From contig JAGUCH010000008.1 in assembly GCA_019096065.1 (NCBI GenBank), positions 6,453,001 to 6,517,000 on the forward strand: DNA of 64,000 bases, read 5' to 3'. Position 1 is the first letter of the stretch, and every line of letters starts with the position of its first letter. Made by a program: the position numbers and the translations under genes. The stretch comes from Paracyclopina nana. Lineage: Eukaryota > Arthropoda > Copepoda > Cyclopoida > Cyclopettidae. Below, piece after piece: positions 9,549 through 32,950 of the stretch. The notes beneath the pieces are model-generated. The model saw only the letters and a program-made list of their open reading frames with translations, had not been told where the DNA came from and did no database searches.

Positions 9549-9552
9549 AACT
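9549..9552 (+). other. Target-site duplication AACT, left copy
   Basis: AACT precedes the TG of the 5' LTR, and the same four bases follow the 3' LTR at 32947-32950. A 4-bp duplication is in the usual range for LTR-element integrases. Confidence 0.8.
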
Positions 9553-10477
9553 TGATGGGCAATAAGTACATCATGTCTCTGGTGCACGTTACGACCAGAA
9601 TAGGACTTGATTGGACCCCTCCAGTGGAACCTGTGGAAACCGTGGAGCCCGTGGAGCCGCCAGAAGTCCGGAAGGTTGCCCATTCACCGCTACATCACCA
9701 CCTCAAAATCACAAAACCTCCTTTCTTAAAAACACCTTTTCATCTCCTCCAACTCTCTGATTGTTGCTGCTGCTGCTGCTACTACCTATGCGTTGAGCCT
9801 TACCTATGGCAATTCACCTGACCTTGAGTGGAGAAGTTGCTAGCCATTGTGTGGAGGAGTTGCTAGCTGCTACATAGAGAGGACCTGCAGCTGCATGATA
9901 ACGGAGAGAAGCAGATGGAAGCTGATGGAACTTGCTGCGATGCATCGAGTGGAGAAGAAGGAGAAGACTCGGGGAGTTCGATGGGGGACTTCAGAGAAAC
10001 AAGACATGGACCAAGTGCACATGGCCCATTGAGTGAGCTCTGCCCTGCTATTGTCCCACCAAAGTTCTCCAAAGTGTGCTGAGGCATGAAGAAGATGGCC
10101 ACAAGAATATTTACTGCAGTACTTATTTCTTTGTATTTGCTGCCATTAATTTGTGTGGTGTTAAAAGCCGAGTGAATAAGACAACCTTGTTTGACTTTGT
10201 TCGACCATAACTTGTATAGAGGTTTCCTGGGCAGTTATGCACCCTAGTCTGAGGCTGTTGAGGCCGTTTAGGACGTGGGTAGGAGGCCCAATCACTGGTC
10301 TACAGCACTGAAGCTTGCCATGTGATGTATCTCGCCAGAGTTGGAGCACTGAGGCTGCGGCTTTGGGTCCAAGGCGAGTAGACATCCGGCCAGCACCCGG
10401 AGGCTGCGAACGGTACCGCGACCATGAAGCCGATGCTAACCATCCTAGGCTTCAGAGGGTGTGACCGTCGCACACCA
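9553..10477 (+). repeat. 5' long terminal repeat
   Basis: 925 bp, beginning TGATGGGCAA and ending CACACCA. It matches 32022-32946 with the same length and no differences noticed in side-by-side reading. It contains a (CTG)5 run near 9764-9779. No strong TATA box or canonical AATAAA is seen; GAATAAGA near 10172 is a possible variant poly(A) signal. Short ORFs inside it are present in both LTRs and look non-coding. Confidence 0.95.
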
Positions 10478-10480
10478 TTT

Positions 10481-10500
10481 TGGAGGCCCCGGAGGGATTG
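10481..10500 (+). other. Primer-binding site, probably tRNA-Thr
   Basis: TGGAGGCCCCGGAGGGATT starts three bases after the 5' LTR. TGG pairs with the tRNA CCA end. The following A implies a U73 discriminator, and GGCCCC pairs with the GGGGCC acceptor 3' strand typical of eukaryotic tRNA-Thr. GGGATT then resembles the complement of a T-arm. The position is seen in the sequence; the tRNA identity is inferred from remembered tRNA-Thr ends. Confidence 0.65.
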
Positions 10501-11732
10501 AAGGCCACTTTCTCTCCTAAAGGTTTGATGACCAAAAAAACCATGAAGTCCCGGAAAATGTCTTGGTGTGGATCAGGATTCCTGCTCTGCGGCGCAGGTT
10601 GGGCCGCACGCTGATTGCGATCAGGGTGTGTCTACTACAGTACAAAAGCAAAATCCCGAAGGCTGACGAGCCGATGGGGGTCACTCCGATGGCATTTGGG
10701 CCTATGTGGTGCGTAGGCTTTAGATTCCCTTAGACCCAAATTGCGCATTGATGCCGTTGGCGGGTTGGAACTGGCGCGCGGGGAGTGCAAGAAGGTACAG
10801 GCCGTGACGTACCACCAGCCCGCTGATGATGTCTTCCATGGACCATTGTTATGATGATGAGCCTACACAAAGTAACAATGACACTGTCTTTCCCGGAGGT
10901 GAATGCATGCGTGCAGGCTCCGCATGGCATAGCTTGGAGTATGGGTGCCATGGCAGCCGGAGAGCCAGCCAAGGTGCAGGTTGCGACCTGAGCCTCTGTT
11001 GCCTATCCATAATGGGGCGAGTGAGCGCAAGAGTGTTGCGACACTAGTGGGTCTCGTCCGTGGGTTTGGCCACACAGATGGAAGAAGATGATGTAATCTA
11101 TGACTCCGCTGTGAGTCAATGAACCCCAAATAGGCCACGCGTGGAGCCAGAGTGGGAGCCACAAAGGAAAATGCGTGTTTGGGGCCCAAAAAACTGGCTA
11201 ACCTTGGACAAGTTGCTGAGGGCACAGGGAAGGTTGGCCGGCCCGCAACTCGAGGAGGAGTGGGCAAACCTAAAAAATTCTTTCATTCACTGAGTCGACA
11301 CTGGTTGGCGAAGTGGCATACCTTTTTTGCGTAAAAAGTTGATGCACCTTTGTTTCAGAGACTTAGAAGAAAAACCCTACCACCTGTAGCACCAGTAGTG
11401 CTAAACCCTAAACCTTTCTTTATAATATAATAAGTGAGTATATTTGTGCGTGTGTGTGAGTGTGTGTTTTGTCTTGGCCGCTCATAGCCTTGACAAAAAA
11501 TAAATAAACGAGCTTAGCAATTGCAACCTTTTTCTCTGTGTCACTTGACGCGGCGTAGTAACTAGGATAAGCTTCCCTGTGCTTTGAACAGCGTATAGCT
11601 TTTAATTCGGTATTGCCGAATTTAGTACACATAGTAGTGTACTAAGACCAGAATATTGCGTGTGACTCCGTTGCACCTCTAAGAGATAAGAAATACTCAG
11701 TGTGACTCCGTCACGCCTTTTACAAGATAAGA
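10501..11732 (+). other. Retroelement 5' leader, non-coding
   Basis: A 1.2-kb untranslated leader between the primer-binding site and the Gag start. It probably holds packaging and translation signals, but none can be named. It is GC-richer than gag and has many upstream ATGs in short frames. A GT-rich microsatellite lies at 11447-11468. Just before gag there is a 40-bp-spaced duplication (GTGTGACTCCG at 11660 and 11700, each followed by a GATAAGAA block); the second copy runs into the Gag ATG. Confidence 0.7.
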
Positions 11733-14297
11733 ATGGCAAATCAGGATTCTAGGATTGCTGGACCTACTCTGGCTGAGGAAGTTACGAAAGTCAAGGAGCG
11801 ATTGTTGCACCATCTTGGGATTAGTGAGGACACTTTTCAAGGGTACTTATCCCAATGCCACCCAAATGGGACCAGCAGGACTGTCTTGCAAAGATTTCTG
11901 CCACACGTTGCTTACCCTGAAGCACTAGAGTTTGTTACGGTAACCCCAACACAAATAGCAGCTGTATGGGATAGGACTCGAATAGTAATTGTTCCTAGGG
12001 AGCCAATTAGACCGTTGGATGATCATATTACGGCAATCATTAGTACTATGCCTCTTAAAGATCCAGTAGGCCAGGTTGTAAATGTGGTTAAATATATTGA
12101 TGCACTTGACCCTAATTCATTGACAAGCACGACATGTGCTTTATTATGCATTTGCTTTGGTCTGGATGAGTTCCTAACTCGTATTGAGGAAAAGAAAGAT
12201 CTGCAGCGTATCCAAGAAGTTGATGGAAGCTCCATGACCTACGCAATGTCAGGGACGCATGAAATGGTTGCGACATTGATATCCAGGAATTGGCTAAAGA
12301 TACGGGCATTTGGAGATGGATTTTCTATTGTAGCAAGGCTTTATGGCCTACAAATCGATTATTTCCTAAATGAGCCGCTTAACCTGAAGCCACAGAAAAC
12401 TTCAGGCCAGAGTGTACATTTTCCAAACAATGAGACGAGTAATGCTGTTCCAGATATGTCCTCGATAGCAAGTCCACCTGGGACTAACCATCACGAGTTC
12501 ACTACTGGAGCTGACCTGAATGTCCATAATAAGTCAGTCCTAACTTCGACTAAAATGAATCCTCGTGATTTGCACAACTTGACTAATTCTGTCACGCTTC
12601 CTCCAATGGAAATTGTACATAGGATGGTACAAAAGATGTTGTCAGGAGGCCATTTGAATATTCAGGAATTAAACACGGTAAAAGCTTACTACACGAAAAT
12701 GCATGATGCAAGCACGGCAAATAAAATTATTGCCTCTGCACAAATCACAGCTAAGCACATGGTTGGGGCAAAAGTAGAGTCTATCTTCAGTAAGAATTTA
12801 GAAAGAACCTTAAGCATAGTAGATGCTGCGACGAAGGAAAGAATGGTGCCGGAAACTGACGTCATCTACGATGAGTCTGCTCCGATTTCAGAGAGGCTGA
12901 AGTTAATTAACACCGACGAGATTAAGGATGTGGAATCAGCCAGACGAGTAATCCTTCAGATGGTTGACCCAAACTTATCCTCAGGAAAGAAATTGATTGA
13001 GATGCAGAAGCTCTTTAGTGTACTTAGCACGAGGGACGAGTTTACTTCTCTCCAAAAGCAGATATTGGCAGAAGGCTACTTGAAGACCCCTGAAATAAGT
13101 GTGGCCGCTGGAGTATCAGCTGACACTTCTAGGAGCATTTATGACCCGACCACCATGAGAGGTTACATTGCTGCACCTACGAATGGCCATGTTAAGTATG
13201 CAAGCTCACAGTCAATGAAGGAGATTAGGCACAAATATACTAAAAAGTTTGACCTACATAGTTCCTCATTAACTGCTGAGAATATAATAAATTTTCTGGA
13301 CTATATGGCGAACGAGGCTGGCAGACAGCATTGGTCTCATGCAGCTTTGTTAACAGCTATGTGTGAGGCTTCATCCCAGAATACTAGTGAGTATTTTAAG
13401 GGGATGGCTGGAGAAGGAAAAGATGGTATGGAATTGCTATGGCAAGATATCTTTAACTACACGCAGTTTGTGCGTAAAGAGGATCCATATTTCCTCATTC
13501 AGGAGATGATCCGGAAGCCTACTGAGTGCTTCACTGCCACACTTAAGGCAATTCTTCGACTGCGAATGAAGATACACAGCACAACCATTGGAAATGGCGG
13601 AGATGCTCATGCAGTCTCTGAAGCCATCTCTGATGGTTTTGCACTCCTAGGACGTCATTGGCCTCAGAATTACCAGTCATTAGTAAACAAATACAACGAC
13701 TATCTGCTGAGAGCGAATATACCTGCTAGGAGTTTGCACGCCTACAATATCATGATGAACCTAATTGGTAGTGACCTAGGTACTTATGTGCCAAGGGACC
13801 CGGATAGGGCTCATAAAGAGGAGAGGCTGCCAATGGTACCCAATATGCGTGCCAAACCTAGAATTGCTATGGTTGAAGCTACTGAAGAGGAGGTGTTAGA
13901 CAGTGCTAGCACTATGTCGGCAGCCTCTGGCCGTAGTCAACGAAGTGCTAAAATAATAAATGAGCTACAAAGCGAGTTGGCTCGAGCAAATTTTGAATTG
14001 AGTAGGCAAGCTGTTGAAGTAGCTATGATGAAAGCTGAATCACCATCCGAGAAAATAAATAGGCTGGGAAAAACTTTTAACATAGATACATCTAAGTTGC
14101 CTGAAGGAAACCCTCTTCAGACTAATGGGTGCTTGTTCTGCAACCAATTGCATTACGCTACACAGTGTACGAATTACCCGAACACGAATTTGACCTCAAT
14201 TAGAAACGATGGCACATTGTGCCCGTTGTGTAAAGGATTGCACCTTGAGTTTAGGGGAGAACAGTGTTGGAAGACACGACCTGCTCGTAAACAATAA
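11733..14297 (+). CDS. gag: Retroelement Gag polyprotein
   Basis: This 854-aa ORF is the structural protein expected to form the particle and bind genomic RNA. The N-terminal two thirds are mostly helical in composition and I recognise no named capsid motif there. A predicted coiled coil lies at about 725-775 (repeated leucines in N-E-L-Q-S-E-L-A-R-A-N-F-E-L). The C-terminus has two Cys/His knuckles: CX2CX3HX4C from Cys800 and CX2CX3HX7C from Cys830. The first pattern is the one typical of BEL/Pao Gag proteins; the second has a lengthened last spacer. The start has a good context (A at -3, G at +4). Gag ends in TAA overlapping the Pol ATG. The ORF is long for a retrotransposon Gag and shows no breaks. 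Confidence 0.88.
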   Translation: MANQDSRIAGPTLAEEVTKVKERLLHHLGISEDTFQGYLSQCHPNGTSRTVLQRFLPHVAYPEALEFVTVTPTQIAAVWDRTRIVIVPREPIRPLDDHITAIISTMPLKDPVGQVVNVVKYIDALDPNSLTSTTCALLCICFGLDEFLTRIEEKKDLQRIQEVDGSSMTYAMSGTHEMVATLISRNWLKIRAFGDGFSIVARLYGLQIDYFLNEPLNLKPQKTSGQSVHFPNNETSNAVPDMSSIASPPGTNHHEFTTGADLNVHNKSVLTSTKMNPRDLHNLTNSVTLPPMEIVHRMVQKMLSGGHLNIQELNTVKAYYTKMHDASTANKIIASAQITAKHMVGAKVESIFSKNLERTLSIVDAATKERMVPETDVIYDESAPISERLKLINTDEIKDVESARRVILQMVDPNLSSGKKLIEMQKLFSVLSTRDEFTSLQKQILAEGYLKTPEISVAAGVSADTSRSIYDPTTMRGYIAAPTNGHVKYASSQSMKEIRHKYTKKFDLHSSSLTAENIINFLDYMANEAGRQHWSHAALLTAMCEASSQNTSEYFKGMAGEGKDGMELLWQDIFNYTQFVRKEDPYFLIQEMIRKPTECFTATLKAILRLRMKIHSTTIGNGGDAHAVSEAISDGFALLGRHWPQNYQSLVNKYNDYLLRANIPARSLHAYNIMMNLIGSDLGTYVPRDPDRAHKEERLPMVPNMRAKPRIAMVEATEEEVLDSASTMSAASGRSQRSAKIINELQSELARANFELSRQAVEVAMMKAESPSEKINRLGKTFNIDTSKLPEGNPLQTNGCLFCNQLHYATQCTNYPNTNLTSIRNDGTLCPLCKGLHLEFRGEQCWKTRPARKQ

Positions 14298-14300
14298 TGG
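14288..14300 (+). promoter_or_regulatory. TAATG stop-start overlap between gag and pol
   Basis: The Gag stop TAA (14295-14297) shares its last A with the Pol ATG (14297-14299). The Pol frame is closed by TAA at 14288-14290, so a -1 frameshift could only happen within about three codons, and no slippery heptamer is visible there. The Pol ATG has A at -3 and G at +4. This points to coupled termination-reinitiation rather than a Gag-Pol fusion. Confidence 0.7.
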
Positions 14301-17300
14301 GACCAAGTACAAAAACTCCCAATAAGAATGATAAAGATAGTTACATCTTGCCTTCATTTATGAGGGGAGAATGTAACAAAGAAGTAGGACGAGCTTACTT
14401 TGATTATTTAAAGGAGCAATCTGTGAAAAATGCCGAAATTATGACTCGTGGAAGTGAGGACAAAAAGGCTCTGGTCCTTGCAATAAGGGGTAGAAAAAGT
14501 CGGTTTGTCCATCAGCATACTATGACTGTAATTGAGATTAGCATAATACTGTTTGCAATAACAATATGTCAATATTGCTTATTTGGTTGGGATTATTGGC
14601 CAATTACAGTAATCTGTAGTGGGGCAATAATAGCTTTATGGTACTACTGTGTAAAAGGTAGCACGAGTGATGAGCAAAAAACTTGTAGTAATGATGGTAT
14701 CGTTACACATCTGGCCTCGGTAAATGCTAATGAAGCAGAGCCAGTAACACATTTTGAACCTTTACCGAATCCGGAACTTGAAGATGACATGCTGAGTATA
14801 TACTCATTAAAGCTACACAATGTTTGTGAAAGGTATTTTATACCAGTGGAGATAACTGGAAAAATACGTTTGCATGCTTTATTTGACAGTGGAGCAATGG
14901 TGCAGATAATATCACGCACCCTTGTAAAACTGATCGAAGACAAGATTGGTTACACTCTACCTCGAGTTGAAACTAATTATGTAATTAAGAACTTTAATGG
15001 AGAAGAATTCCCAGGGAATGAAGCTGTCTCTATTCAAGTTGCATTTGGAAATCGTGTTTTAATCAGACAGGCTGTTTTCCTTGTATCTGATTGTGATACA
15101 CTATTAATGATAGGAAACTCGTTATTAGTGGACAACAATGTCCGGATGACTAGTAAAGATGGAAAGCACTTTATGGATTTCCCTGGAAAATCTAAACATA
15201 AGAAAATTCCACTCTTACTATCAAAAGAGGCTTTCTACCCAGTGGCAATAAATGAAGGGATCACTCTGCTCCCTGGAGAAGAAGTGACCACCATGGCTAG
15301 TTTACCTCATGATTTACCTATCATCAGTAATGACATTCAAATAGATTCTGACTCTGACGAAGATGACGACCTTGGTCGTACCCATCACCAGAAAAATGTT
15401 TATTCCGGATTGGTGGATAAGTATTTAAACTTTATGCCTAGTAACGAGTACCGCGGAGTGACCTCTGAGGGGGCACTTACTGCTGTCACTCGTAAAGGTA
15501 CCTTCCCAGTAAATATTGGGAATAATACTGAGGATCCCATCTACTTAAATGCACATGCAGTGATTGGGCGAGCCAGGATTGTCAAGAAACAGAAATTTAA
15601 GAGTACGGTTGCAGCCCATGTGGCTAACATTAGTTTAAAGGCCCTGGAGCATGAAATGGAGTCATGTTACTGCAATTATTTGGATTCGCACGTAATTGTG
15701 CAGTTTACGGATATAAATGGTCTTTCTTTTACTGATATGCATTTTTTCAATGCCTATGAGCCATTAAGGGGAAGCCACAAGCCCTTGATTAGTAGAAAAG
15801 GAAATTACGTATTTATCTCAGCTAACCAAAGTGATGGTTACGAAGAGATAACTGATGTGATAATTAGCAAATTTATGAAACGAGAAAAATGGGATGAATT
15901 ACCGTGGGCTGTTATTGTCCCAGGACATAAACTTTTGTCTGGCGAACAAAAGCGCATTGTAATAAAGATGAATATGATGGTGGATAAACTTAAAGTAGTA
16001 TGGCTAAAATATAAGTATATTTGCCCACCATGCATGACCATTGCCTTGTGTCCTATTGAATCCTACCTCAATGGGATGGATAGGGTCATAATAACTATGA
16101 TGATACATGAGTATGAGAATTACCCCCTTGCTTATCAAAGAAATGAACTAGATAAGTATTTTGAACTAAATGTTCTTGGAGCTCATGGTATCATGTTTAA
16201 GTTGTCCAACAATGTTGAGTTAATATTCCATGTCCCAAGCGAACATGCTGAGAATATTGGCTACTTAACCACGCTTATGTACATAATAATTGGTCAATTA
16301 CGGTACCAAAATGTGGCCGACGACGTGTGGATCAGAACACTTATGGATGGCGATGTGCATGTAGGTGACCCACTTTGTATGGCAACCACCGCTGCATTGC
16401 TAGTGTTATCTGGGTTACAAATGTACCCTGATGACCTTACCAAAGAGGATATAAAGACAAAATTTGGTAAATTTATACCATTTGTACTTGAACCACATGG
16501 TTGCTCGTGCAAGCCTTGCTTGGCAAAGAACATGGGCATCAAAGTGCCACTTAAGAGCTTCACTACTATTTACGAAGGTCCTATTGTGGATACCAGTGTC
16601 AGACAAACAGTTCTAAAAAGTCCTTCTGAACTAGACCTCGTATCAGCTAGCCTGGAGCTTTCTAAAGATGAGAGAAATAACCAAAAACTATATGATGAAG
16701 TTTATAATCTCCTTCTGAAATTTCCTAGTGAGTTTGACCCTCTCCGTGTTTTAAATGGAGTAGCAGGTTACACATTTCCATTGAAACCAGAAACGATCCT
16801 GAACATGGATCTAGAACACATTCCGGATGAAGTTAGAGAGGACTTTAGGGACCTCTTAATAGAATATAAGACTATATTCTCGGAGGATCCTAGATCATAT
16901 AGGCTATGGAATGTCGAACCCATGAAGTTCCAGCTAAAGGACGATAAACCATTAGTGCCAAAAGTATTTAACATGTCGGAGTATGAAACTACGCAGGTTG
17001 ACCGTAAAATAGCATTAATGCTGTCATCTGGATTAATTGAGATTGTGGATAAGTCACTTAATAGGTACTCGGCTTGCCCTTGTTTCTTGACTTCAAGGCC
17101 AAACGATGAGAAGCTGCCTATGAAGCAACGCAAGCCTCGGCTACTAGTTGACTTAACATCTTTTAATAAAAATCTGATATTTACGACTTCGGAGCACATA
17201 GTGCCACCTATCCCTACCTTGCTAGGGATGTTATCTAATTCATGTTTGATGTCATCTTTCGATGTGACATCCGGATACGATAACTTACCTGTGGACTCTG

Positions 17301-20300
17301 ATAGTGCTGATATGTGCTGCTTCGCGGTAACGTCCCCTCGCAGTATATATAGATCAGTCTTTTTGAAAAGTAAGTCATGCCTACAAGGGATCGCCATTGC
17401 TCCGAGAATGTTCGCAGAGCTCCTCCAACAGGCCCTTAACCCTGAGATATTGCCCTTTACATGTGTATATGTAGACGATTTGGTCGTGGCCTGTAAGAAC
17501 CCTGGCAAGCCTAGGCCTGCTATGTTGGATGATTACATACGACATTTAGGTGATTTGAGGAAGTTGTTTCAAAGCCTCAAGGACTTAAATGCCCTATTAC
17601 AAATTAAAAAGACTCAATTAGGTGTGAAAGAAGCTACAGTCTTAGGGCACCTAATATCTATTGATGAAAATGGGATTATGACTATGCGAATGCCCGATAA
17701 ATTCAGGTCTGCATTTGATGATTTCCCTATTCCTACAACCAAGAAACAGCTGCAAAAGTTTATTGGGATGACAAACTGGTTAAGCCAGTATTGCCCTAAT
17801 ATGGCTACATACACAGCCCCACTGCTAGATGTATTACAAACAGCACAAGGGAAAACAGGAAAGTTCACCTTCACTGCTTTCCAAGAAAAATGTTTCTATA
17901 AAGTAATAGACGAGATTAAAACAGGTATGTCGCTGGCATTGCCACGTTTTAAAGAAGGTTATCTAGTGGTTGATTCTGGGGTAATAAGTACCTCGGCATT
18001 ATTAATGGAGGTAAATGAGGATGGTAAAGCTGTGTGTGTTGGTGCACACAGCGCACGCTTTCCTTTATCAGTTTGCCTCTCGTACCACTCGTTTCAACGT
18101 GAAGCATTAGGAGTGTTAACAATGATAAATCATTTTAAAAGTATACTATTCGCCTATGAGCGACTAGTCATAGTTACGGATTGTCTATCAATAGCCAGCG
18201 TGCTGGCTAGTTCGTTTACTGGTAAAGATGCATTTACTCATAGACTAGCAGCTCGTATTTATTCCCTGCCTGTAGCATGGAAATTGAGGGCTGTACCTCG
18301 CACAGAGGTAGAAGTAGTTGATGTATTATTAAATAAGTACCATCAAACGCCAGAAGGCGAAACTGTATTTTATGCGCCCTACTCTATTGCGGGACAGATT
18401 ACGAAGGATATTTATGCAAATAAATACCCTCTGCCCGATGCAATCAAAGACAAGGTGCTGACGACACAGGAATTACTTACACATGTGTATGATACACTTG
18501 TGAATTCTGGAACTATGAGTAAAACTCTACTCCAGAAAAGGTTGCATTGCCTAAATGACAAATGGGTTGACATGATCGGCACGAAGCCGCCATTTGTGCA
18601 CGACGACACGTCAACCTTACTTCAAGCAAAACATGATGATGATGAATTTTTTGAGGACGAGATACTTTCTAAATTATCTCATTCATTTCATGGTGAAGCT
18701 GATTTTGATTCACCAGTAAATCATATAGAAAATAACTTAAGAGTAGATACAGTAACTGTTAAACGGCGAATATCGCCACATTTACCAGGAATTACACGCA
18801 ACCTACTCATTAAGTTGCAACAAAATTGTGAAGAAACACAAAAGATAATAAATCTAATTATGCTTTCACCTCCAGAGAAAGTACCACTAGATGTTGCAGT
18901 AAAATATCGTGTCCTTGACGGTGCTCTGTTGGTCATTCGCAAGAATGTAAAGTTACCTTTTAGCGTTGCGACCAATACGAAAGTATATATGAGTATGCCC
19001 AACTGTGTGTACCTGATGGCATGTATTCATTTGTTACATAACCATTTGGGAAGTAAAAAGACTAATACTCTTTTTACCCAATCTATGTATTCAACTTACT
19101 CAGCCAGAATCAGTCGTATTATTATTGGTGCGTGCATGCATTGTGCTTTATACCGCCAAGCTAATACTAGGTTTGTTGGGAAGGGGCGTTTCCGCATCCC
19201 GACTCAGCCATGGGAATTGGTAATGATTGATTTGGCCAAGTTCGATGACACTTTAGTCAAAGGGTCTTCCGCAAAAGACCTGTTAGTATTTGTCGATGTT
19301 TATTCTAAGATGATAATTGCTAAACCACTATTGGATGCTAAATATAAGCAGGTAGCGAATGCTATGGAAGAAGTAATTTCTTTGTTTGGGGTGCCAAAAA
19401 CATTACTTGCAGATAATGGTGCCCAGCTAACGACTAATAAGGCCCTCCAATGCCTTGTTGATCGTTATAAAATTAAGGAGTTATGTCATTACCGAACTTT
19501 ATCGCCATACAAGCATTCGAACGCTTACGCTGAAAATGCTATACGAATAATAAGGAGTGCATTAGTTTTAAACTCTAACTCATACAATATGAGGTTATGC
19601 GATGTGTTTAAGACTTCTATTTACGCAATAAATAATCGCCCTCTTACTTATTTGGCATATACTGATGATAAAGGGGTGAAGATCACCCCCACACCTTTTT
19701 CGTTATTTTTCGATAAAATGCCGTTCTATCACTTGGGACGGGATGTGTTTGAAATACTTAGTGAAAGCGAGGACAAAATTCATAAAGCTGAATGGCGTCA
19801 ACGCATGCGTGAATATGATCTAGAAGAACAGTTCCACTTAGAAAAAATGAAGGCTACTGAAAGGCCTTCCTTTAAGCCAGAGATTGGATCATTAGTGTTA
19901 GTAATAAAACATCCAATAAATAAACAACGGTATAAATTTATGGATGATTTATTTGAAGTTATTGACATTGGACAGCATTCGACTGTGACTGTAAAGCCAT
20001 ACCTTTATGATGGGCTTACTCGTGAAGTAAGCTTAGATCATGTTAAGTTATATCGATTCCATGAACTATATAGGTTCCTTCCGGAAAAATTGTCCAACCT
20101 CTTGAAACGACCTTATACTCCGGAAGAAATCCTGCGTAAGAAAGCCAGGAATGAAATTATTGAATTTCTTGAAGGGGCAGCCCCTGAAAGTCATGAATAT
20201 AGTCTGCGGAATCGCACTAAGGCCTCCAGTATAGTGGCCTCGCAAAGTTCATTAATATCACAATCATCAGCAACGGACACTGAGCCAAGTGCAATTCACC

Positions 20301-24038: not shown

Positions 24039-24060
24039 GATGGTGCCCACGGGCGCCATC
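24039..24060 (+). other. Hairpin followed by AATAAA signals
   Basis: GATGGTGCCC, a 2-base loop, then GGGCGCCATC pair with one G-T wobble. Two AATAAA hexamers follow (about 24066 and 24076). Possibly a 3' end for a sense transcript terminating behind pol; this is inference. Confidence 0.4.
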
Positions 24061-24134
24061 GTTTAAATAAAATTGAATAAAATTAGCCTAGCCGCTAAGA
24101 TCTTTTATAGTTTAAGATTCGAAAACATACTTAC

Positions 24135-24206
24135 CTGAATTTTGTGTGACTGCTCACTGCAGTTCCCACAAAATGCAGAAAATTGTGGAGGGGGGAGTAT
24201 ATATAC
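24135..24206 (-). promoter_or_regulatory. Possible antisense promoter with 5' splice site
   Basis: Reading the minus strand, TATATATA (about 24206-24198) is followed about 40 bp later by a CAGTG initiator-like site, then by CAG|GTAAGTATG, a near-perfect donor at 24135/24134. This arrangement looks like a short first exon of a spliced antisense transcript, but I could not find a convincing coding exon downstream of it. Confidence 0.35.
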
Positions 24207-24481
24207 GTAGCCGCAGGAAATGCAGCCTGCGCCCCAAAAAATTTCACAAAATTTGAGCGCCCTCGTGCTCTGAGAAAGTATTGTAAACAAAATTTCTAGA
24301 TAAAACTGGAAATGGCAAACTGCCGTGAATCTATAAATCTGAACGCTAGCACATAAATGTCGCACAATCTGCTTCATATATTATTATTAGTGCTAACCGA
24401 AATTAGCTGAAAAGATCGGTGCTGATAACCTCAATCTTTTAAATCAATTTCGGTTATGAGCACCCGAACTTGATGCACGCA

Positions 24482-25610
24482 TCAAGACCGAGCTGGAATG
24501 CAGAGCTATAATAGCTATGCAAGTCAGTGATAACAGATAAAACATAATCTATGAGTCTGTTCAAAATGGCTAGACAAAAAACATTTGAGCAAGAAAGACT
24601 GAAATGTGAGTTGCATTGCGCAAAGACGCTGAGCCAGCTTTTGTCGAACAGATACCCGACTCCAAGGGGGGCAAAAAGTTGTTATGGAACAAAAATCCAG
24701 AGACGCTCCCACACTAGAAAAATCCAGTTTGAGCGGCTTCGCTTGGAGATGTAGAATGGTGGCGCCACCATGCGCCTAACCACGAACCAAAAACGTTTTG
24801 CCCAAGGCTAAAACGAACAATGAAGATTGGAACCGCCGGTGCACCTACAATTCACCTGGGAAGGTTTTTGAACCTAACTAAACTCAAAAATGGCCACACT
24901 CGGCTCGAGTGGCGACTCAAATTCCGGGATTTATTATGCGAATACAATGAATAAAATAAAACGTTGCATAAAAGTCAAGAGAATCAAAATGACTAATGTA
25001 TAATGATACCGCTAATGATCGCCAGATGGACCAAAAGATGAAAAGGTTCAAAGTGCACAAAGATTAGGCATATTGTTAAATAAAATATGTGCTGAAATGT
25101 GGCTATCTTGCAGTTGCCACATTACTCCCCTCTTTTTTGGTGGAGAATTCGAGTTACGCTAAACACAGCACTAGCAAAACAAGCTAGGTCAGCACAAATT
25201 GTAGACTGACATGTGAGAAAATGAAAAATACACGTTTTTTAGCTCAATATGGAAAAGAATTATTGTGCCATTGCCTAGTGCTTGAGCTTGCTTTTGCTAT
25301 GTGCAATGACATACGGCCGGTTTTCCAGTCCTGTAGGGATGATACGAATCCCAAGCCACCTTCAAGGCCTAGCTGGAATGCGGGACAATTTCCCTTGCAT
25401 CAAGGCCGAGCCGGAATGTCAATGGAAAAAATGCTGCTAATTAGCATTGGTACCCCATAAGCACCAAAGCTCAGCCAGTAGTATTCGCAGACACTCAAAT
25501 AATAGTGATGCACCAAGCCCGAGCTGGAATGCAGGGCTATAGTAAACGCTTTTCTTGAACATTGAAGCATCGTTTGCAGTGTCAAGGCCGTCAAGGTCGA
25601 GCTGGAATGC
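24482..25610 (+). repeat. Five spaced copies of a 20-bp repeat
   Basis: Copies of TCAAGGCCGAGCTGGAATGC, with one to three changes, start at about 24482, 25362, 25400, 25512 and 25591. Copies 1 and 4 share a further extension, CAGRGCTATA. Every copy keeps GGAATG, whose complement CATTCC is the core of the TEAD/Scalloped binding site. They are same-strand and irregularly spaced, so they look like protein-binding or RNA elements rather than a simple tandem repeat. Confidence 0.75.
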
Positions 25611-25888
25611 TAGCCTTTTTACAGGCCCAAATCTGTGGATTTGGGCCGCTAATGAGTAATTATGCAATTTAAGTGCAATTCCCGACACCTGAGATATGGT
25701 CTATGGTCCTTTTGGCCATGCAATGTAAACAATTGGACTCGAAATGTGCTTGGCTATGATAATGAACTGCTGAACTCGACTAGAAAGGTGCTGAGCTCCA
25801 TACTGAATAAGGCTGAGCTACCTGCTGAGGTAAACGCGAAATGAGTTGCGGTGAACACAGTAGACACAAAAGTACAAAGAACGTGGAC

Positions 25889-25894
25889 TTTATT
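25889..25894 (-). terminator. Poly(A) signal of antisense gene B
   Basis: AATAAA on the minus strand, followed by a GT-rich stretch (TTGTACTTTTGTGTC), about 165 bp past the stop of the antisense gene at 26059-26596. It suggests the antisense transcript ends inside the retroelement. Confidence 0.55.
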
Positions 25895-26058
25895 GTCCCG
25901 TTTGGGAGGCCTCCTGGCTGAGGGGGGCGGGCTGGCCTTGTGCCACGTTGGGGCCAGCCCTGGCCGGTGCGGTGGCCTACCGATAACGAGATGAGTTCTG
26001 CAAAAGATAAGATGAATATAGTGATGCTGTAATAGCTTAAGTGAACGAGTTAGACTTA

Positions 26059-26596
26059 CTAGACGACTCCCTCGAGGGGGTCCGCCTCCGCCACGCCCAA
26101 AAGGCGGAGGACCCACGCGCTGATGCGGGGGAGGTCCTCGGGCTCCGCCCACACGCGGCTGACGAGCCGATAAAGGCCTCTTGGCCTGGTCCGATGGACC
26201 CAAACGAGGGCGGGGAGGACCACCACGTAATACGTGGCCGCCCCTGCCACGTTCAGGGCCACGCCCTAGAGGATCTCTTCGGCCTGTAATACGAGAAAAA
26301 GTCGAGCTTGACCAAATAGATAACGAATAAGTGCACTTACGAAGCCCTGAACAGGGCAGGGAGGGCACGCCTCCTCGTGGCCCAAAGGGGCTGCGGGCGG
26401 GGCCGCAGGTGGCTGGGGCCACCCCGCCGCGGACTCGGCCGCGGGGGGCGCCCCTACGGGAGCCTCAGTGGCGGGGGCCACTGTTGTGGTTGAAGGATTC
26501 TACATTCCAAATGAAAAGATACAGTTTTATGAAAGGATTCAACGGATTGGATTCGAAATAAAAACTTACGAACAGACCGTGGAGGAAGCCCGCCAT
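26059..26596 (-). CDS. Antisense accessory gene B, small putative membrane protein
   Basis: Proposed exons 26570-26596, 26341-26499 and 26059-26265 (TAG stop) all join in phase 0 and give about 130 aa. The donors are GTAAGT. The order is a short N-terminus, a Pro/Ala/Glu-rich segment of about 50 residues, a hydrophobic span at about 65-85 (A-T-Y-Y-V-V-V-L-P-A-L-V-W-V), and an Arg-rich tail. Two acceptors compete before the last exon: one after 26284 keeps an in-frame TAG after five codons, while the one after 26266 removes it and allows the membrane segment. A further perfect donor (GTAAGT) overlaps the final stop. The region is far GC-richer than gag-pol. A TATA-like AATAAAAAGAGG lies about 80 bp upstream. 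I recognise no family; the model rests on splice logic only. Confidence 0.45.
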
Positions 26597-26771
26597 GTTT
26601 TGAACTTTTTAGTAAACAAGGCGCGCTACCAGACAAATCCGGTCTGAAATCGGCCAAATTTTACGTGAAAAAGCCTCTTTTTATTACGCGCCTCTACGTG
26701 AAGTCTGGGAGCGCTGTTAGATGAAGGTAACGGCTTCGCTAATACCTGCTACCCCACTTGAATTCGAATTC

Positions 26772-26777
26772 TTTATT
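26772..26777 (-). terminator. Poly(A) signal of antisense gene A
   Basis: AATAAA on the minus strand about 300 bp beyond the stop of the antisense 304-aa gene and upstream of the start of gene B, so the two antisense genes could be separate transcription units. Confidence 0.45.
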
Positions 26778-27080
26778 ACATATATATAGAATACAAGTAC
26801 TATAGTATATACTCGAGTATATTGGAAGCTTTGAGATCAAAATAAAAACAAGACGAGTGCAATTGCCAAAAGCCGGCTTTGAAGTCTGCAAGTCTGCGAG
26901 GCCTCGAAAAGTTTGCGAGATCTCGAAAAAGTGGAAAAGTCCGCGAAGACTGCGGGAAATGCAAGTTATAAAGTGAGAATTCGCACGCGATAAGAAGGAC
27001 AAAGTGCAAAAGTTACAGAAAACGCGCTTAAATACGTGCGAAAAGAGGGCGATCTTCGTCTCGCAAGTTCGTGGCGATCC

Positions 27081-28130
27081 TTAGTTGGCATCGCTGTTGA
27101 CGTCTTGGGAAGCCTTTGATCCAGCTGAATCCTGGTCCTCATCTGCGATTGAGAGAGGTTCAGCCTCATTGACTTCGTCTTTGTCCGGAATGGACTCTGC
27201 TGCCGAATCCAAGCGACGGTTATCTCGGGCTCGAGCCCGGCGAGATCGTCTCTTCAAAGTCCGCTGTCCACACCCTTCAGTAACAGGTACCTGAAAAGGT
27301 GCATGGAAAAGAGTACATGAGTAACCTGTTTACAGTTCATAAATTGATAGGCCCTTACCCAGCCCTTGGGATTAGGGACGTCATAGATGTGGGCCAGCCC
27401 TGACATGATGCTGGGGTTCCGGCGTAGTGTCCCATAGGGGTCCATGGCAGCCATTGCCATTTGGAGCGAATGGACATCAGGGTCACGCATAGTCGGGGCT
27501 GGTGGCAAAGCTCGGACCTCTGGTGTACAGCAGTGAAATACCGCTGCATGCTCAGATGGGGCCTTTGTTGGAAGCATTTGCATGGCTCCACTGGCAGCCG
27601 CTGATTCCGTACGAATAGCTCGAAACGTGGCCACGAACCTACGGCACCATCGTGATGTCCACACGCAGAAGTACACCAACATGCCAAGCAAAATCTGTAA
27701 GGAAGAGGTGGTAAATAAAATTTGGCCATAGTTGCAAAACTAGCCATAAAGTTGAACTTACCAAAGCCATCCCAATGGAGGCTCCAAGACCGATCCATCC
27801 CATTACACCGTATCGGTGATAATTGAAAACCTCATCGATCCAGTCCCTCTGAGGGGCAACGGGACGATAACCATTTGGTACCGCTGGCAATAAATCTCGG
27901 GGGTCAAACACCTCCACTTCAAAGGGATCGACAGGAGCTGGGTCAAATCCAGGTCCACCCTCAGCTTCAGAAATGCCACTCTCAGGAATAGCAACATTAG
28001 GACCTACTGGGCCCGTGTTTTGAGAATCCACAAGCGCAGGATCCACTGTTGATGACTGGATAGGAACCTCCGTGGGAGCCTCTGCAGAGCTGCCCTCTGG
28101 AGTTAGAGAAACCCAGGCCAAAATGACCAT
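27081..28130 (-). CDS. Antisense accessory gene A, spliced single-pass membrane protein
   Basis: Three exons (27762-28130, 27359-27694, 27081-27290) join in phase 0 to give 304 aa. The introns are 67 and 68 bp, with GTAAGT/GTAAGG donors and pyrimidine-rich CAG acceptors, the same size as host introns. The predicted protein has a short possible signal peptide (1-16), a Pro/Glu/Asp-rich ectodomain, one transmembrane helix at about 110-133 that is formed only when exons 1 and 2 are joined, and a long cytoplasmic tail with an Arg cluster at about 245-261 and an acidic C-terminus. It runs opposite to the retroelement and is divergent from the sense gene at 28495. I recognise no homolog. Layout resembles gene B (acidic/Pro-rich ectodomain, helix, Arg-rich tail), so the two may be related. 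The function could be a surface or receptor-interaction protein, but that is only a guess. Confidence 0.65.
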
Positions 28131-28494
28131 CGCGATTTGATTGGGATTGGAATATCTCTAGAAAAGTGACCAGCCTGGACGAAGTCCGATGGGAGAATGA
28201 TTAACATTAAGTGAAAGCTGAGAGGTGCAACTGCCTGTTGCACCCTCGCTACGTTTCACGACCTAGGAAGTCAAAAACGTCCGTGCAGCTAGATGATGAG
28301 CGTGCGCGCACGCGCCCATCTTATAAGGAAGTGGCATAAGTCCTGTTACCTCATTCTTTTTTTACCGAGACAAAAAACGACCTTGGGTTTTTTAAAGGGA
28401 CAACCCACGCATTTAAATGCCCGAGAGTGTGGGGCATATCTGTAAAGATGCGTATAAAAAGGGCAGGTTACGGCCTTACAGCAACAGTCTGGAA
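28131..28494. promoter_or_regulatory. Divergent promoter of antisense gene A and the sense unknown gene
   Basis: For the sense gene, TATAAAAAGG lies at 28453-28462 and a CAGTCT initiator-like site about 33 bases on, just before the ATG at 28495. For the antisense gene, CTTATAAG at about 28320-28327 reads as a TATA-like box on the minus strand, about 190 bp before its ATG. Between them lies the 12-bp palindrome CGTGCGCGCACG (28301-28312). Confidence 0.55.
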
Positions 28495-29793
28495 ATGAGC
28501 GATAGCTTGAATAGCCTCGATAATCTAAGGATGTCTCTGATCACCGAATCCATGGAAGGAGAATCTGCATTGGTCTCTATGATGGAGACTGATAAGACTG
28601 GAGAGTTCAACGAGCAAGAGGTTAGTGAGCTCCTAAAGGATGATGAGCCAGTTATGGATCGCAACATGCCTGCTGTCAATATTGAGAACCAAGCCCAGAA
28701 TCAGACGACTAGACACCAGGACCAAGAGGAACCCCTCGAGGTCCCATTGGAAAGGGTATCCTCCAGTTTGGGGTACCCATTGCCATTTGAGGATTTGATC
28801 AGGCCTCCCCACATGGAGGGTCTACAGGCCTATGCAAGGGAGGCGAGCCGGACCAGAGCTACTATACAGCAGCATTATGATGCAAGCCTGTTGAAGATAG
28901 CTACGAAAGAGGTCATGACTGTTGGAAAGGAGGTGCCTTTTGACCTAACGATTAGGATAAATGGAGAACCCTATGAACGGACCGAGCCTCGTAGGCCATT
29001 GAAGGTGAAAAACTTTGACTGCATTGAATTGATTATCGAGCCAGTGAGTAAAGGTGGGGAGATTCCCGATTTTCTTGTTATATTTCCGATGCTAGACAAT
29101 CTACCAGTCTACAATTTGCCTGACAAGATGGAATATGACGAGAATGTCCATAAGTTGGCCAATGTCAGAAGTTGGTCTGCCGTCCAGAGCCCAACAGCTG
29201 TTGGGTATTATGTTCATGGAATCCGTGGACAGGGTGGAGCTCAACTCCCTGTAGTAGTCTCCAAACATTATACCAAGCGAGGCTGCATTCAGATCATGCC
29301 AACATTGGACTCATCATTTTGGGATCCGCGGATGTTCCATGATTTGACGTCACCTTACTTGCAACTGTATGTGGGACCGCCGTCCTGCCTTAACAATGGT
29401 GTGGCCCAAGCACCACGAAAATTGGACGTGAAGATCGATATGACCGCACTCCTGCCTACCATGGTAGCCCAGTTTGTTGATCGAGCCATTGGAACGTATC
29501 CGCAATGCGTGAGGTACACAGCCGGGGCCAGGCCCCAAAAACTAGCCGCGTTTGTGGAGAAGTCTTGGCAACAAAAACCAAGGCGAGGACCTAGACTGTA
29601 CGCCGATGTAGCGCGCGGGCGCCCTTTTGGCGCAGGAACAAATGGACCAGACATATTGCACGCTAAGCGCTCCAAAGTCGATAAGAATAAGGAGCGTGTG
29701 AATTATCTCCTCCAGACTAAAATGGAGGAAATGACCCCCAGCGACATCAAGGTATTCACTGAGGCGATTAATGGATTTGTCGGGCAGTTCTAA
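28495..29793 (+). CDS. Unknown retroelement accessory protein, intronless
   Basis: 432 aa from the ATG at 28495; the frame is open from an ATG at 28417 (458 aa). I prefer 28495 because a strong TATA box lies at 28453, so mRNA from it would lack the first ATG. The N-terminal 100 residues are acidic, Ser/Glu/Gln-rich and probably disordered. The middle (about 120-350) is rich in alternating hydrophobic residues and looks like a beta-rich globular domain; the C-terminus (about 365-432) is basic, then helical. There is no signal peptide or transmembrane helix. A jelly-roll capsid-like or nucleoprotein-like role is conceivable from the composition, but I see no diagnostic motif and assign no function. 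Confidence 0.7.
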   Translation: MSDSLNSLDNLRMSLITESMEGESALVSMMETDKTGEFNEQEVSELLKDDEPVMDRNMPAVNIENQAQNQTTRHQDQEEPLEVPLERVSSSLGYPLPFEDLIRPPHMEGLQAYAREASRTRATIQQHYDASLLKIATKEVMTVGKEVPFDLTIRINGEPYERTEPRRPLKVKNFDCIELIIEPVSKGGEIPDFLVIFPMLDNLPVYNLPDKMEYDENVHKLANVRSWSAVQSPTAVGYYVHGIRGQGGAQLPVVVSKHYTKRGCIQIMPTLDSSFWDPRMFHDLTSPYLQLYVGPPSCLNNGVAQAPRKLDVKIDMTALLPTMVAQFVDRAIGTYPQCVRYTAGARPQKLAAFVEKSWQQKPRRGPRLYADVARGRPFGAGTNGPDILHAKRSKVDKNKERVNYLLQTKMEEMTPSDIKVFTEAINGFVGQF

Positions 29794-29966
29794 AAAATGA
29801 AATTACCCTTCAGAATCGAATTGTACATATTGATAAAATACTTGGTTGTGGGCCAATACTCTTAACTTTTTACCATACATGTCGACATGCTATGATAATA
29901 AAAACCAATGGAAAAAAGCAAAGAGTGTCTAGACATAGTAAGGTGGCGTGCCCATACTTGTCTGGG

Positions 29967-29975
29967 TTTATAAGG
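29967..29975 (+). promoter_or_regulatory. TATA-like box upstream of the envelope-like gene
   Basis: TTTATAAGG lies about 60 bp before the ATG at 30031, with GTTTCTGATCAGAA downstream offering a TCAG initiator-like site. It would allow an unspliced subgenomic envelope mRNA, which otherwise needs splicing from the LTR transcript. Confidence 0.4.
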
Positions 29976-30030
29976 AAAGTTAGCGGTCTTGGGGCCCATA
30001 TAGTTTCTGATCAGAATTTGTGCTGGTAAG

Positions 30031-31917
30031 ATGTCGTTTGAATTGGTCTTCATACTCACCCTTTTGGGATCTGGCACTTGGGGCCTGTCCAACTACCCAA
30101 ATACTCAGTTCGTACTGGATGAGGCACTTTGCCATTCCGGACATGCCCTAGTTCCAGTTAGAGTGGTCCATCATCCTAGAATGGTGAAAAAGGCTATGGT
30201 GTTAGATACGAAGGATTACAGTGGCCTTTTGCAATCAACAATTGGCGTCCTGAATAATATTGACACCGTGGTAAAAGAAGTTAAGGACAAGGAGGACTTG
30301 GTCCATATTGGGAATATGTTGGCAGTTGGCGAAGAGAGTACCCCTAACACCATCGACAAAGCTTGTTCCAAACGTCAAGGGTTTGTACCATTTGCCCCTA
30401 AAACTTATGAAGACATGGATGTTTTTCTAGAACTATTACGTTATACGGCAAAGGAAAGCCCTCTTGCCACTAAGGTAACTTTATGTGTAAAGTTTCGGAT
30501 TGTCAATGAGGTACCTATGTCCTTGGATGGGAAAACCACATTTCCTCAAGTGGGGTATGAGAAAAAACCGGACGATGAGATAATTGCAGGTTACCCGTGT
30601 ATCACGGGGTATTTCACTGTGGGACAAGGGCCGAGGACCATGACGTCAGTTAAAGCCCATGCACCACACAGTGATGGGAAGGCAACGATATGTGTCCAAA
30701 ATGACTTTGTCATCACCCATAAGGACTTTGTCAAATCTGAATTGTCTGGGAGGAAAAGCTTCCTTGAAAAGGCCTACAACGCCGTGATGGCCCTAGCAGA
30801 ATCAGGTAAATCGACAAAATTCACCGATGGCATGATAGCAAATACCACTCCACTGAGAGTACCACCGAAAGTTTCTTTGGCCTTTCGACTACTGAAAGGT
30901 TTTAGCAAGGTCTTTTTGAAGTCTGGATTAATACCAAATGATCTGCAGCAAGTATTGTCATATGCTGACACAGTTGTGCAATTTGCCAGAAATTTTGGAC
31001 AGGCAGGCACACGGTTCAGCATACCAACTCTGGCGCATAATAGTGACAGAAATGCGGCCACCATTACTAATGTTTATGAACCTTTGGCGAACACTGAGCA
31101 GAGTGGAGACTTTGTCACTCAGGGAATAGTTGGGTATAAAGAAATGGACCCTACCCCTGAGGTCACATATCATATTGTGTCACGAAGCAAAAACGGATTC
31201 TTACTGCATGATAGGTATTTGACCCGCCGAAATGATCTAGTGTTTGTGTCTCGGGAAATACCCATCTATAGTGATTGCTTCGTTCATGACCATAATTTAA
31301 CCGTGTGTGAAAACAAGGACTTTGACTTGACAGAAGGAGTCCAACACTGTGCTAAAGTACTTTTAGGGCTAGCTCTGGGTGACCCTTTTGACGCCTGTGA
31401 ATTAGAGCCACTTAAAACTAACACGCTCATTGATGTGGGATGTGCTAATTATAAAGGGTTCTTAAATTTGGTCTCAAGTGCAATGATTAATAGGACTTGT
31501 TTAAATGACTTCAAGAACTCGATGGTATTGGAACCAGGATCCTATCAGATCCTTAGCAATTGTAAGGTTTCCCTTGGAACTCAAAGTACTGGATACGAGG
31601 ACTCTCCTTGGGAAAGTGATATGGTGAAGTTCTTTACAAAATTCCCTGAAGATGAACTTGGAGGTTTATTCAATAATTGGGAAATAATCCTGACGGTGAG
31701 CCTATTGTCTGCAGCACTGGGATTCACGTGTATGGGCATATTGATTTGGAAAAGGCGGCGAGTATGCAGCCGATGTTATGATGATGGAGGCTATGTGAGA
31801 CCTAATACGTCCCGCTCACGGCCTCGCTACAATAGAGGAGATCGCAAGAAAGATGCTGACCAAAATCAGCGCCTTACTGTGCGAATGAGTGGCCTGGGAG
31901 GCGCGACGTTAGTATAA
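30031..31917 (+). CDS. env-like: Envelope-like type I membrane glycoprotein
   Basis: An intact 628-aa ORF with a hydrophobic signal peptide (about 1-19), a large ectodomain with paired-looking cysteines and N-x-S/T sites, one transmembrane helix at about 551-573 followed by a K-R-R-R stop-transfer, and a 55-residue basic tail. A cysteine-rich cluster lies at about 430-515, before the membrane. Position between pol and the 3' LTR is that of a retroviral env. I see no clear R-x-K-R furin site and cannot match it to gypsy-type, baculovirus-F, phlebovirus or chuvirus glycoproteins by eye. It probably mediates membrane attachment or fusion if the element is infectious; this is inference from layout. 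No break is seen. Confidence 0.78.
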   Translation: MSFELVFILTLLGSGTWGLSNYPNTQFVLDEALCHSGHALVPVRVVHHPRMVKKAMVLDTKDYSGLLQSTIGVLNNIDTVVKEVKDKEDLVHIGNMLAVGEESTPNTIDKACSKRQGFVPFAPKTYEDMDVFLELLRYTAKESPLATKVTLCVKFRIVNEVPMSLDGKTTFPQVGYEKKPDDEIIAGYPCITGYFTVGQGPRTMTSVKAHAPHSDGKATICVQNDFVITHKDFVKSELSGRKSFLEKAYNAVMALAESGKSTKFTDGMIANTTPLRVPPKVSLAFRLLKGFSKVFLKSGLIPNDLQQVLSYADTVVQFARNFGQAGTRFSIPTLAHNSDRNAATITNVYEPLANTEQSGDFVTQGIVGYKEMDPTPEVTYHIVSRSKNGFLLHDRYLTRRNDLVFVSREIPIYSDCFVHDHNLTVCENKDFDLTEGVQHCAKVLLGLALGDPFDACELEPLKTNTLIDVGCANYKGFLNLVSSAMINRTCLNDFKNSMVLEPGSYQILSNCKVSLGTQSTGYEDSPWESDMVKFFTKFPEDELGGLFNNWEIILTVSLLSAALGFTCMGILIWKRRRVCSRCYDDGGYVRPNTSRSRPRYNRGDRKKDADQNQRLTVRMSGLGGATLV

Positions 31918-32000
31918 TAACTGTATCAACCTTAATGTGATGTAAGCGATCAATGACACCTTTTTTATATTTTTAGAGCTTAAAAACTATTTCAAAAGCT

Positions 32001-32021
32001 GAAAAAGTTAGGGCCGGGGAA
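32001..32021 (+). other. Polypurine tract region
   Basis: GAAAAAGTTAGGGCCGGGGAA directly precedes the 3' LTR. It is purine-rich but interrupted by TT and CC; GGGGAA at the LTR border is the likely second-strand primer. Confidence 0.55.
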
Positions 32022-32946
32022 TGATGGGCAATAAGTACATCATGTCTCTGGTGCACGTTACGACCAGAATAGGACTTGATTGGACCCCTCCAGTGGAACC
32101 TGTGGAAACCGTGGAGCCCGTGGAGCCGCCAGAAGTCCGGAAGGTTGCCCATTCACCGCTACATCACCACCTCAAAATCACAAAACCTCCTTTCTTAAAA
32201 ACACCTTTTCATCTCCTCCAACTCTCTGATTGTTGCTGCTGCTGCTGCTACTACCTATGCGTTGAGCCTTACCTATGGCAATTCACCTGACCTTGAGTGG
32301 AGAAGTTGCTAGCCATTGTGTGGAGGAGTTGCTAGCTGCTACATAGAGAGGACCTGCAGCTGCATGATAACGGAGAGAAGCAGATGGAAGCTGATGGAAC
32401 TTGCTGCGATGCATCGAGTGGAGAAGAAGGAGAAGACTCGGGGAGTTCGATGGGGGACTTCAGAGAAACAAGACATGGACCAAGTGCACATGGCCCATTG
32501 AGTGAGCTCTGCCCTGCTATTGTCCCACCAAAGTTCTCCAAAGTGTGCTGAGGCATGAAGAAGATGGCCACAAGAATATTTACTGCAGTACTTATTTCTT
32601 TGTATTTGCTGCCATTAATTTGTGTGGTGTTAAAAGCCGAGTGAATAAGACAACCTTGTTTGACTTTGTTCGACCATAACTTGTATAGAGGTTTCCTGGG
32701 CAGTTATGCACCCTAGTCTGAGGCTGTTGAGGCCGTTTAGGACGTGGGTAGGAGGCCCAATCACTGGTCTACAGCACTGAAGCTTGCCATGTGATGTATC
32801 TCGCCAGAGTTGGAGCACTGAGGCTGCGGCTTTGGGTCCAAGGCGAGTAGACATCCGGCCAGCACCCGGAGGCTGCGAACGGTACCGCGACCATGAAGCC
32901 GATGCTAACCATCCTAGGCTTCAGAGGGTGTGACCGTCGCACACCA
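32022..32946 (+). repeat. 3' long terminal repeat
   Basis: 925 bp, TG...CA, same sequence as 9553-10477 as far as read. It should supply the poly(A) site for all sense transcripts. Confidence 0.95.
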
Positions 32947-32950
32947 AACT
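32947..32950 (+). other. Target-site duplication AACT, right copy
   Basis: AACT directly follows the terminal CA of the 3' LTR and matches 9549-9552. Confidence 0.8.

Follow-up and report, generated by a model that had tools for sequence, protein, structure and literature searches.

The window analysed here, a 64,000-nucleotide stretch from the copepod Paracyclopina nana (GenBank assembly GCA_019096065.1, contig JAGUCH010000008.1, positions 6,453,001 to 6,517,000 of the forward strand), contains at positions 9553-32946 a 23.4-kb long terminal repeat (LTR) retroelement with an internal region of 21,544 bp, which is probably related to Ty3, carries env, and has promoters inside it and genes on either strand. 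As a rule an LTR element is expressed as a single genome-length RNA that is then spliced, and to our knowledge genes with promoters of their own on both strands are rarely seen in elements that copy through RNA. If confirmed, this would be a reverse-transcribing element that has acquired DNA-virus-like control of single genes and is able to keep introns, and another animal example of an internal region longer than 20 kb. Giant gypsy-like elements and antisense accessory genes are already known, but separately as far as the available parts of the literature go; the young copies within one genome make the promoter, splicing and recombination questions directly testable.

The genome assembly (92 Mb, 10 contigs) was searched for further copies. 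The search with the reverse transcriptase (RT) returned 138 rows, and 84 places were left after dropping 34 rows at 29% identity and 20 second fragments. By RT identity to the window these fall into the window's own family (A), a single copy at 94% (A'), family B at ~88%, family C at 65-66% (six places) and family D at 48% (seven places), plus fragments.

Probable genes on both strands of the accessory module

A module of 9.7 kb lies behind pol and holds, as a preliminary description made from the window's letters had it, two antisense spliced genes (AS1 and AS2), a sense gene of unknown kind (P0001), an env-like gene and long non-coding DNA. Its features are as follows.

24385..24465 (+): stable hairpin, also in A'
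24479, 25359, 25397, 25510, 25588 (+; span 24479..25622): five copies of a CAAGGCCGAGCTGGAATGC-like motif
25889..25997 (-): AS1 last exon, stop at the junction, AATAAA at 25894-25889
26060..26283 (-): AS1 exon 3, tandem acceptors giving a start at 26283 (AEEIL, then stop) or at 26265 (membrane-span domain)
26341..26499 (-): AS1 exon 2, Pro/Ala-rich
26570..26596 (-): AS1 exon 1, ATG at 26596
27081..27290 (-): AS2 exon 3, basic then acidic tail
27359..27694 (-): AS2 exon 2, the exon 1/2 junction lying inside a membrane span (by eye)
27762..28130 (-): AS2 exon 1, ATG at 28130
28322..28327 (+): TATAAG, 95 nt upstream of the P0001 ATG
28417..29793 (+): P0001, 458 aa, no membrane span
29969..29974 (+): TATAAG, 62 nt upstream of the env ATG
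30004..31917 (+): env-like gene, ATG at 30031, with hydrophobic start, conserved Cys and C-terminal membrane span

Both sense frames are open in the window copy and have homologs in each other family (one or more copies read); in the A' copy both are broken. Per site, env, P0001 and RT show 0.68-0.82 silent versus 0.09-0.37 replacement differences, and the env-like protein keeps ten invariant Cys columns across 8 aligned rows. Upstream of the env ATG a TATA[AT][AG] box was found in 5/5 families (one copy each), at -62 in A, A' and C, at -60 in B and at -61 in D. The env-like protein showed no similarity by sequence to known fusion proteins, no relatives at E 0.01 among 7993 scored protein-database candidates and none in viral contigs among 22 pattern-matching stretches; it would most likely act in entry or budding.

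On the minus strand, splice sites, conserved exon peptides and substitution pattern support two spliced genes, with donors at 26569, 26340 and 26059 (AS1) and at 27761 and 27358 (AS2). The AS1 exon 3 protein is 72% identical in B; in A' its first 57 residues are 65% identical, and in D, which has the exon at all seven places, 54 residues are at 50%. The AS2 exons are 41-55% identical in A', and AS2 exon 1 is 28% identical in B, in which the frame after the match continues the membrane span (by eye). Silent and replacement differences per site are 0.78 and 0.28 in the proposed frame of AS2 exon 1 (0.59/0.42 and 0.35/0.45 in the other frames) and 0.82 and 0.29 in that of AS2 exon 2 (0.56/0.34 and 0.42/0.42).

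At AS1 exon 3, two AGs that look like acceptors lie 18 nt from each other (TTACAG/GCCGAAGAGATCCTCTAG/GGC, with slashes after the acceptors). After the first, the frame reads AEEIL and then meets a TAG; the second AG is part of this TAG, and its use would open the membrane-span domain in the same frame. This tandem acceptor is kept in A, A' and B, and D shows it too, with a spacing of 12 nt (TTTTCTAG/GGCTTTGATTAG/GCC). The tandem-acceptor 23-mer AGGCCGAAGAGATYCTCTAGGGC has 69 exact matches in the genome, while the AS1 exon 3 proteins among the A copies range from 100 down to 79% identity. By choice between the two adjacent acceptors, AS1 probably yields both a short and a membrane-spanning product. 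The long antisense frame at 25754-26464 was rejected as coding, its conserved parts being AS1 exons in another frame. Farther along the minus strand, at 24134-24205, a TATA box and a splice donor stand ~70 nt apart and are kept in two other A copies; for this possible third antisense start near 24.2 kb no coding exon was recognised, and no AATAAA was found to its left on the minus strand.

In the non-coding DNA, folding of the hairpin gave -24.8 kcal/mol (z -5.4) in the window and -21.3 kcal/mol (z -5.6) in A', with 0/200 shuffles as good in either, for stretches that were picked because of the inverted repeat they contain; longer cuts around it gave z -4.0 and -2.8. The CAAGGCCGAGCTGGAATGC-like motif also occurs five times in A' and was absent from the B, C and D sequence examined; an exact pattern for it matches 151 times in the genome. 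Hairpin and motifs may serve as an enhancer, in export or in packaging. No known RNA family was found inside the module.

Copies of the element and linkage of the module

From the LTR search 40 of 142 candidates were scored, and all 40 matched at 97-100%. Including the window, 23 LTR pairs were compared: 17 are without mismatch (one with 2 gap columns) and six have 1-2 mismatches, and because the pairs are nearly mismatch-free, the insertions are young. Matching 4-bp flanks enclose 22 of the 23 pairs (21/22 without the window). At the exception, pair L061/L015, primer-site sequence follows the 3' LTR, indicating a head-to-tail pair, in which two elements on contig C4 at ~883-906 kb share one LTR. 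No LTR was found at L036, which had been tried as pair L074/L036. Several copies share an open pol frame of 2669 aa (A), 2513 aa (B) or 2578 aa (D).

Linkage of the module to pol was assessed at the places left after dropping second fragments (RT 84 of 138 rows, AS1 79 of 80, P0001 74 of 96, env 68 of 71). Copies that lack the 22.3-31.9 kb block, which would have counted against the preliminary description, were looked for. At 68 of the 84 RT places the module is kept: AS1 stands antisense to RT, with P0001 or env downstream. Of the other 16, seven belong to D and matched AS1 but no sense gene, six belong to C and gave no match to AS1 or the sense genes, and three are single cases: AS1 alone at one, P0001 and env without AS1 at another, no match at the third. 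The read C copy and the read D copy carry, in the same order, homologs of P0001 (22-23% over 243-271 residues) and of env (27-30%); lacking the block is therefore not a property of any family read. Seen from the module, RT lies 5-22 kb upstream of 76 of the 79 AS1 places and P0001 or env downstream of 70, on the opposite strand, and 63 of the 74 P0001 places have env close behind.

Identities along the module differ between copies. Between the 22301-23300 block and AS1 exon 3, high and low identity occur in all four combinations (e.g. 98% with 84%, 87% with 100%), and over 26051-26300 two A copies fall to 86% (L042) and 85% (L041), the rest of the module bins being at 90-100% in L042 and also at 84-88% in places in L041. 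These mosaic patterns suggest recombination between element genomes.

Three further observations concern single loci or other elements. At C6:6501187 an AS1 exon 3 match (72%) has no RT, P0001 or env match within the ranges applied; it could be a fragment, part of a nested copy or a gene on its own. On contig C1 at ~2.63-2.65 Mb (L006, L020) a ~26-kb copy carries the 22301-22900 block twice, 5.8 kb apart, likely by internal duplication. The 34 RT-search rows at 29% identity belong to a second, ordinary Ty3-like family, many of them near-identical, with frames of up to 1742 aa, mostly 1443 aa.

Boundaries, gag and pol

The window copy is one complete, recently inserted LTR element, in agreement with the earlier account of it: identical 925-bp LTRs, an AACT duplication, a tRNA-Thr primer binding site (PBS), gag and pol are all present, both frames being open.

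9549..9552 (left) and 32947-32950 (right), unstranded: target site duplication AACT
9553..10477 (+): 5' LTR, 925 bp, TG...CA
10481..10498 (+): PBS, 18 nt complementary to the tRNA-Thr(AGT) 3' end with CCA
11706..14297 (+): gag frame, first ATG at 11733, two C-terminal Cys/His knuckles
14295..14299 (+): UAAUG, gag stop overlapping the pol start
14297..22300 (+): pol from its AUG, with hydrophobic stretches, protease, RT, RNase H, integrase and a long C-terminal extension
14513..14653 (+): hydrophobic stretches at the Pol N-terminus, before the protease
32011..32021 (+): G-rich tract GGGCCGGGGAA in the polypurine-tract position, just before the 3' LTR
32022..32946 (+): 3' LTR, identical in sequence to the 5' LTR

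The LTRs agree at 925/925 bases and AACT stands on both flanks, which rules out the doubt that they come from different insertions. The PBS follows the 5' LTR after three bases; the genome has a tRNA-Thr(AGT) gene whose encoded 3' end accounts for 15 nucleotides of the PBS, the added CCA accounting for the other 3 (a pattern search of the genome for the tRNA 3' end gave one place, assigned by ARAGORN). In GGGCCGGGGAA the purines are interrupted by CC, the Metaviridae feature sought being a run of about ten A/G residues; the tract is kept in A', nearly so in B, and similar in C.

The Gag knuckles have the pattern CX2CX3HX4C. In the pol open frame (14291-22300, 2669 aa) Pfam recognised RVT_1 (E 6e-13) above its curated cut-off, and matched a Ty3-type RNase H, a Ty3-type protease and an integrase core, all three below theirs; the order protease, RT, RNase H, integrase is that of Ty3. 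At the junction with gag we found UAAUG in A and B, UAAAUG in C and AUGA in D, so that the pol AUG stands at the gag stop in 4/4 families (one copy each), in frame -1 relative to gag in A, B and D and in the same frame in C. Frameshifting was considered and is less likely, because gag and pol share a frame in C and the AUG position is the conserved part. Termination-reinitiation at the gag stop is the probable route to Pol, and the constant AUG fits this mechanism as reported for SART1. According to the available part of the source, SART1 and similar two-ORF (open reading frame) retrotransposons have the same UAAUG stop/start overlap (PMC2881922); SART1 is a non-LTR element, whereas here UAAUG joins gag and pol of an LTR element.

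The hydrophobic stretches at the Pol N-terminus also occur in the read B and C copies (overlapping one another in C), and an LPSFMRG-like motif near this end is common to A-D (LPPFMQG in D); Pol probably starts with membrane-spanning segments. Two stretches in the last third of Pol, NYRSLAGFREYNK and DYRELAGIRKYGK, repeat one motif within the C-terminal extension (by eye); it may be used for tethering.

Affinities, expression and rival explanations

Against solved structures the RT matched Ty3 best (E 1.3e-21), followed at E 9e-14 by what we take to be a caulimovirus-type enzyme and at E 2.7e-11 and weaker by retroviral entries, the best of them presumably from foamy viruses. The protein search scored 7986 candidates, of which 18 passed E 0.001; their identity is 21-25%. 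A midpoint-rooted RT tree of A-D, these 18 matches and one host Ty3 row placed A-D in one clade (support 100/100) on a branch of 2.6 changes per column. The element most likely represents a lineage of LTR retroelements that is related to Ty3 but deeply separate and so far undescribed, to be filed near Metaviridae. The pol of BEL/Pao elements is of the Peptidase_A17 type, and no such Pfam match was obtained at E 0.1; membership of Retroviridae is likewise not indicated, the RT being nearer to Ty3 than to retroviruses. The proposal of a complex, retrovirus-like lineage suits the organisation of the element but not its RT, which is not close to Retroviridae. The env behind integrase, an Errantivirus feature, is present by anatomy only; Errantivirus env is of the gypsy/baculovirus-F type, to which the env-like gene gave no sequence match.

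With errantivirus-like Ty3/gypsy elements (Metaviridae) the element shares the LTR, the PBS, the protease-RT-RNase H-integrase order, a Ty3-type RT and an env-like gene after integrase (PMC7879559); it differs in its distant RT, the 21.5-kb internal region, antisense spliced genes, the env TATA box, the pol AUG at the gag stop and the hydrophobic Pol start. Planarian Burro, as described in the available part of its report, likewise has an internal region longer than 20 kb, a gypsy-like pol, accessory ORFs and an env-like region, but its Env homology and many domains lie in one polyprotein, where here a separate env stands behind pol and accessory genes lie on both strands (PMC6431247). A single giant polyprotein of the Burro type was not found: the ORFs are separate, and no Env-homology or apoptosis-type domains were detected. 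Antisense accessory genes are known in LTR elements, and in Grande with a promoter of their own (PMC11963269, PMC7264820). In the accessible text, the plant Retand/Grande elements have regions of 2.9-6.6 kb and sense ORFs without membrane spans, and introns are not mentioned; the element here has introns, env and proteins of membrane type. An internal promoter, as proposed here, is also known from foamy viruses (PMC7828637), and human T-cell leukaemia virus has antisense genes (PMC7264820, PMC11963269), both according to partly accessible sources. Within the accessible parts of the literature, our search turned up no described copepod element of this kind, nor the combination of introns, env and a fixed env TATA box with giant size and antisense genes.

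Judging by its anatomy, the element would replicate as other LTR elements do, through an LTR transcript, a tRNA-Thr primer, Gag particles, reverse transcription and integrase. The accessory genes would probably not be expressed by splicing of the LTR transcript alone, because env (perhaps also P0001) has an internal TATA box and two or more genes run antisense to that transcript. The minus-strand introns would persist through each replication cycle, because the sense genomic RNA hides them from the spliceosome. More tentatively, and with slightly less than even probability, this may be a retrovirus-like lineage with a DNA-virus-like layout, combining separately promoted genes on two strands, minus-strand introns, an acceptor/stop switch in AS1 and an AS1 cassette shuffled by recombination of co-packaged genomes.

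Several results weigh against internal promoters and genes on both strands, or against parts of the accompanying model. Promoters, splicing, reinitiation and both AS1 products are readings from sequence. The chance of an env TATA box in a 45-nt window is 0.058-0.073 per family, and the product of 1.0e-6 comes from a test framed after the sequences had been viewed, in families that share ancestry. The promoter case for P0001 is weak: its TATA box stands at -95 in A, at -71 and -106 in C and only at -19 in B, where the start may therefore lie further in, and none was seen by eye in the A' sequence viewed. No TATA box lies close to the AS1 or AS2 ATG. In A' the AS1 exon 3 frame shifts after residue 57 and AS2 exon 3 carries a stop. 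Searches with the A queries found neither AS1 nor AS2 in C and no AS2 in D; a sequence match to AS2 exon 2 was obtained in A and A' only, and the likenesses in B and C frames were seen by eye. For AS1 exon 3 the silent and replacement values (0.48/0.17, A vs B) refer to the proposed frame alone. Single-sequence and alignment searches of env and P0001 against solved structures gave nothing credible, and single-sequence structure models were unusable (mean predicted local distance difference test scores of 31.1 for env and 33.5 for P0001). Gag gave no capsid match in Pfam or among solved structures, its knuckle pattern resembles that of BEL/Pao, and the Pol start of family D has no membrane span above threshold.

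Errantivirus env is usually a spliced product of the LTR transcript, and an ordinary env-bearing Ty3/gypsy element of this sort would express env and P0001 in that way, with TATA boxes by chance and minus-strand frames as by-products or regulatory antisense RNA. The shifting position of the P0001 TATA box suits such an element, and non-coding antisense transcripts are known in LTR elements, according to the accessible part of one source (PMC7264820). We nevertheless think it improbable, given the constant env TATA spacing in 5/5 families, the AS1 splice signals kept between families, and an AS2 silent excess that is stronger in the proposed frame, though one other frame per exon also shows more silent than replacement differences. 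DNA viruses typically have a promoter for each gene, on either strand, and an old LTR element might have acquired P0001, env and the antisense genes as a block from a two-strand virus, keeping viral functions. The much lower A versus B identity of env and P0001 (44-46%) than of RT (87-88%) speaks for this origin, which is compatible with a Ty3-related element bearing internally promoted genes on both strands; no donor appeared among the 7993 scored env candidates or in viral contigs, and the sense-gene order is the same in A-D, so any capture is old. We regard it as unlikely, although less so than the errantivirus-like alternative. That the structure is an artefact, whether of nested insertion, of chimeric assembly or of LTRs belonging to separate insertions, can be given next to no credence: some other copies seem nested, by their overlapping coordinates, or lie head to tail, but this copy has matching 4-bp flanks and identical LTRs, and the same layout recurs at 68 of 84 RT places.

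Two features elsewhere in the window are recorded for completeness. A tRNA-like match at 60563-60630 (+) barely exceeds the Rfam cut-off (31 vs 29 bits). A CDC14 phosphatase gene at 37153-38562 (-) adjoins the element and by its relatives places the host, probably, among copepods. It has many partial matches of up to 94% and a EukProt match at 62% tagged as Tigriopus, and its best species-named relatives are from the copepods Eurytemora carolleeae (69% over 71% of the query) and Lepeophtheirus salmonis (60% over 97%).

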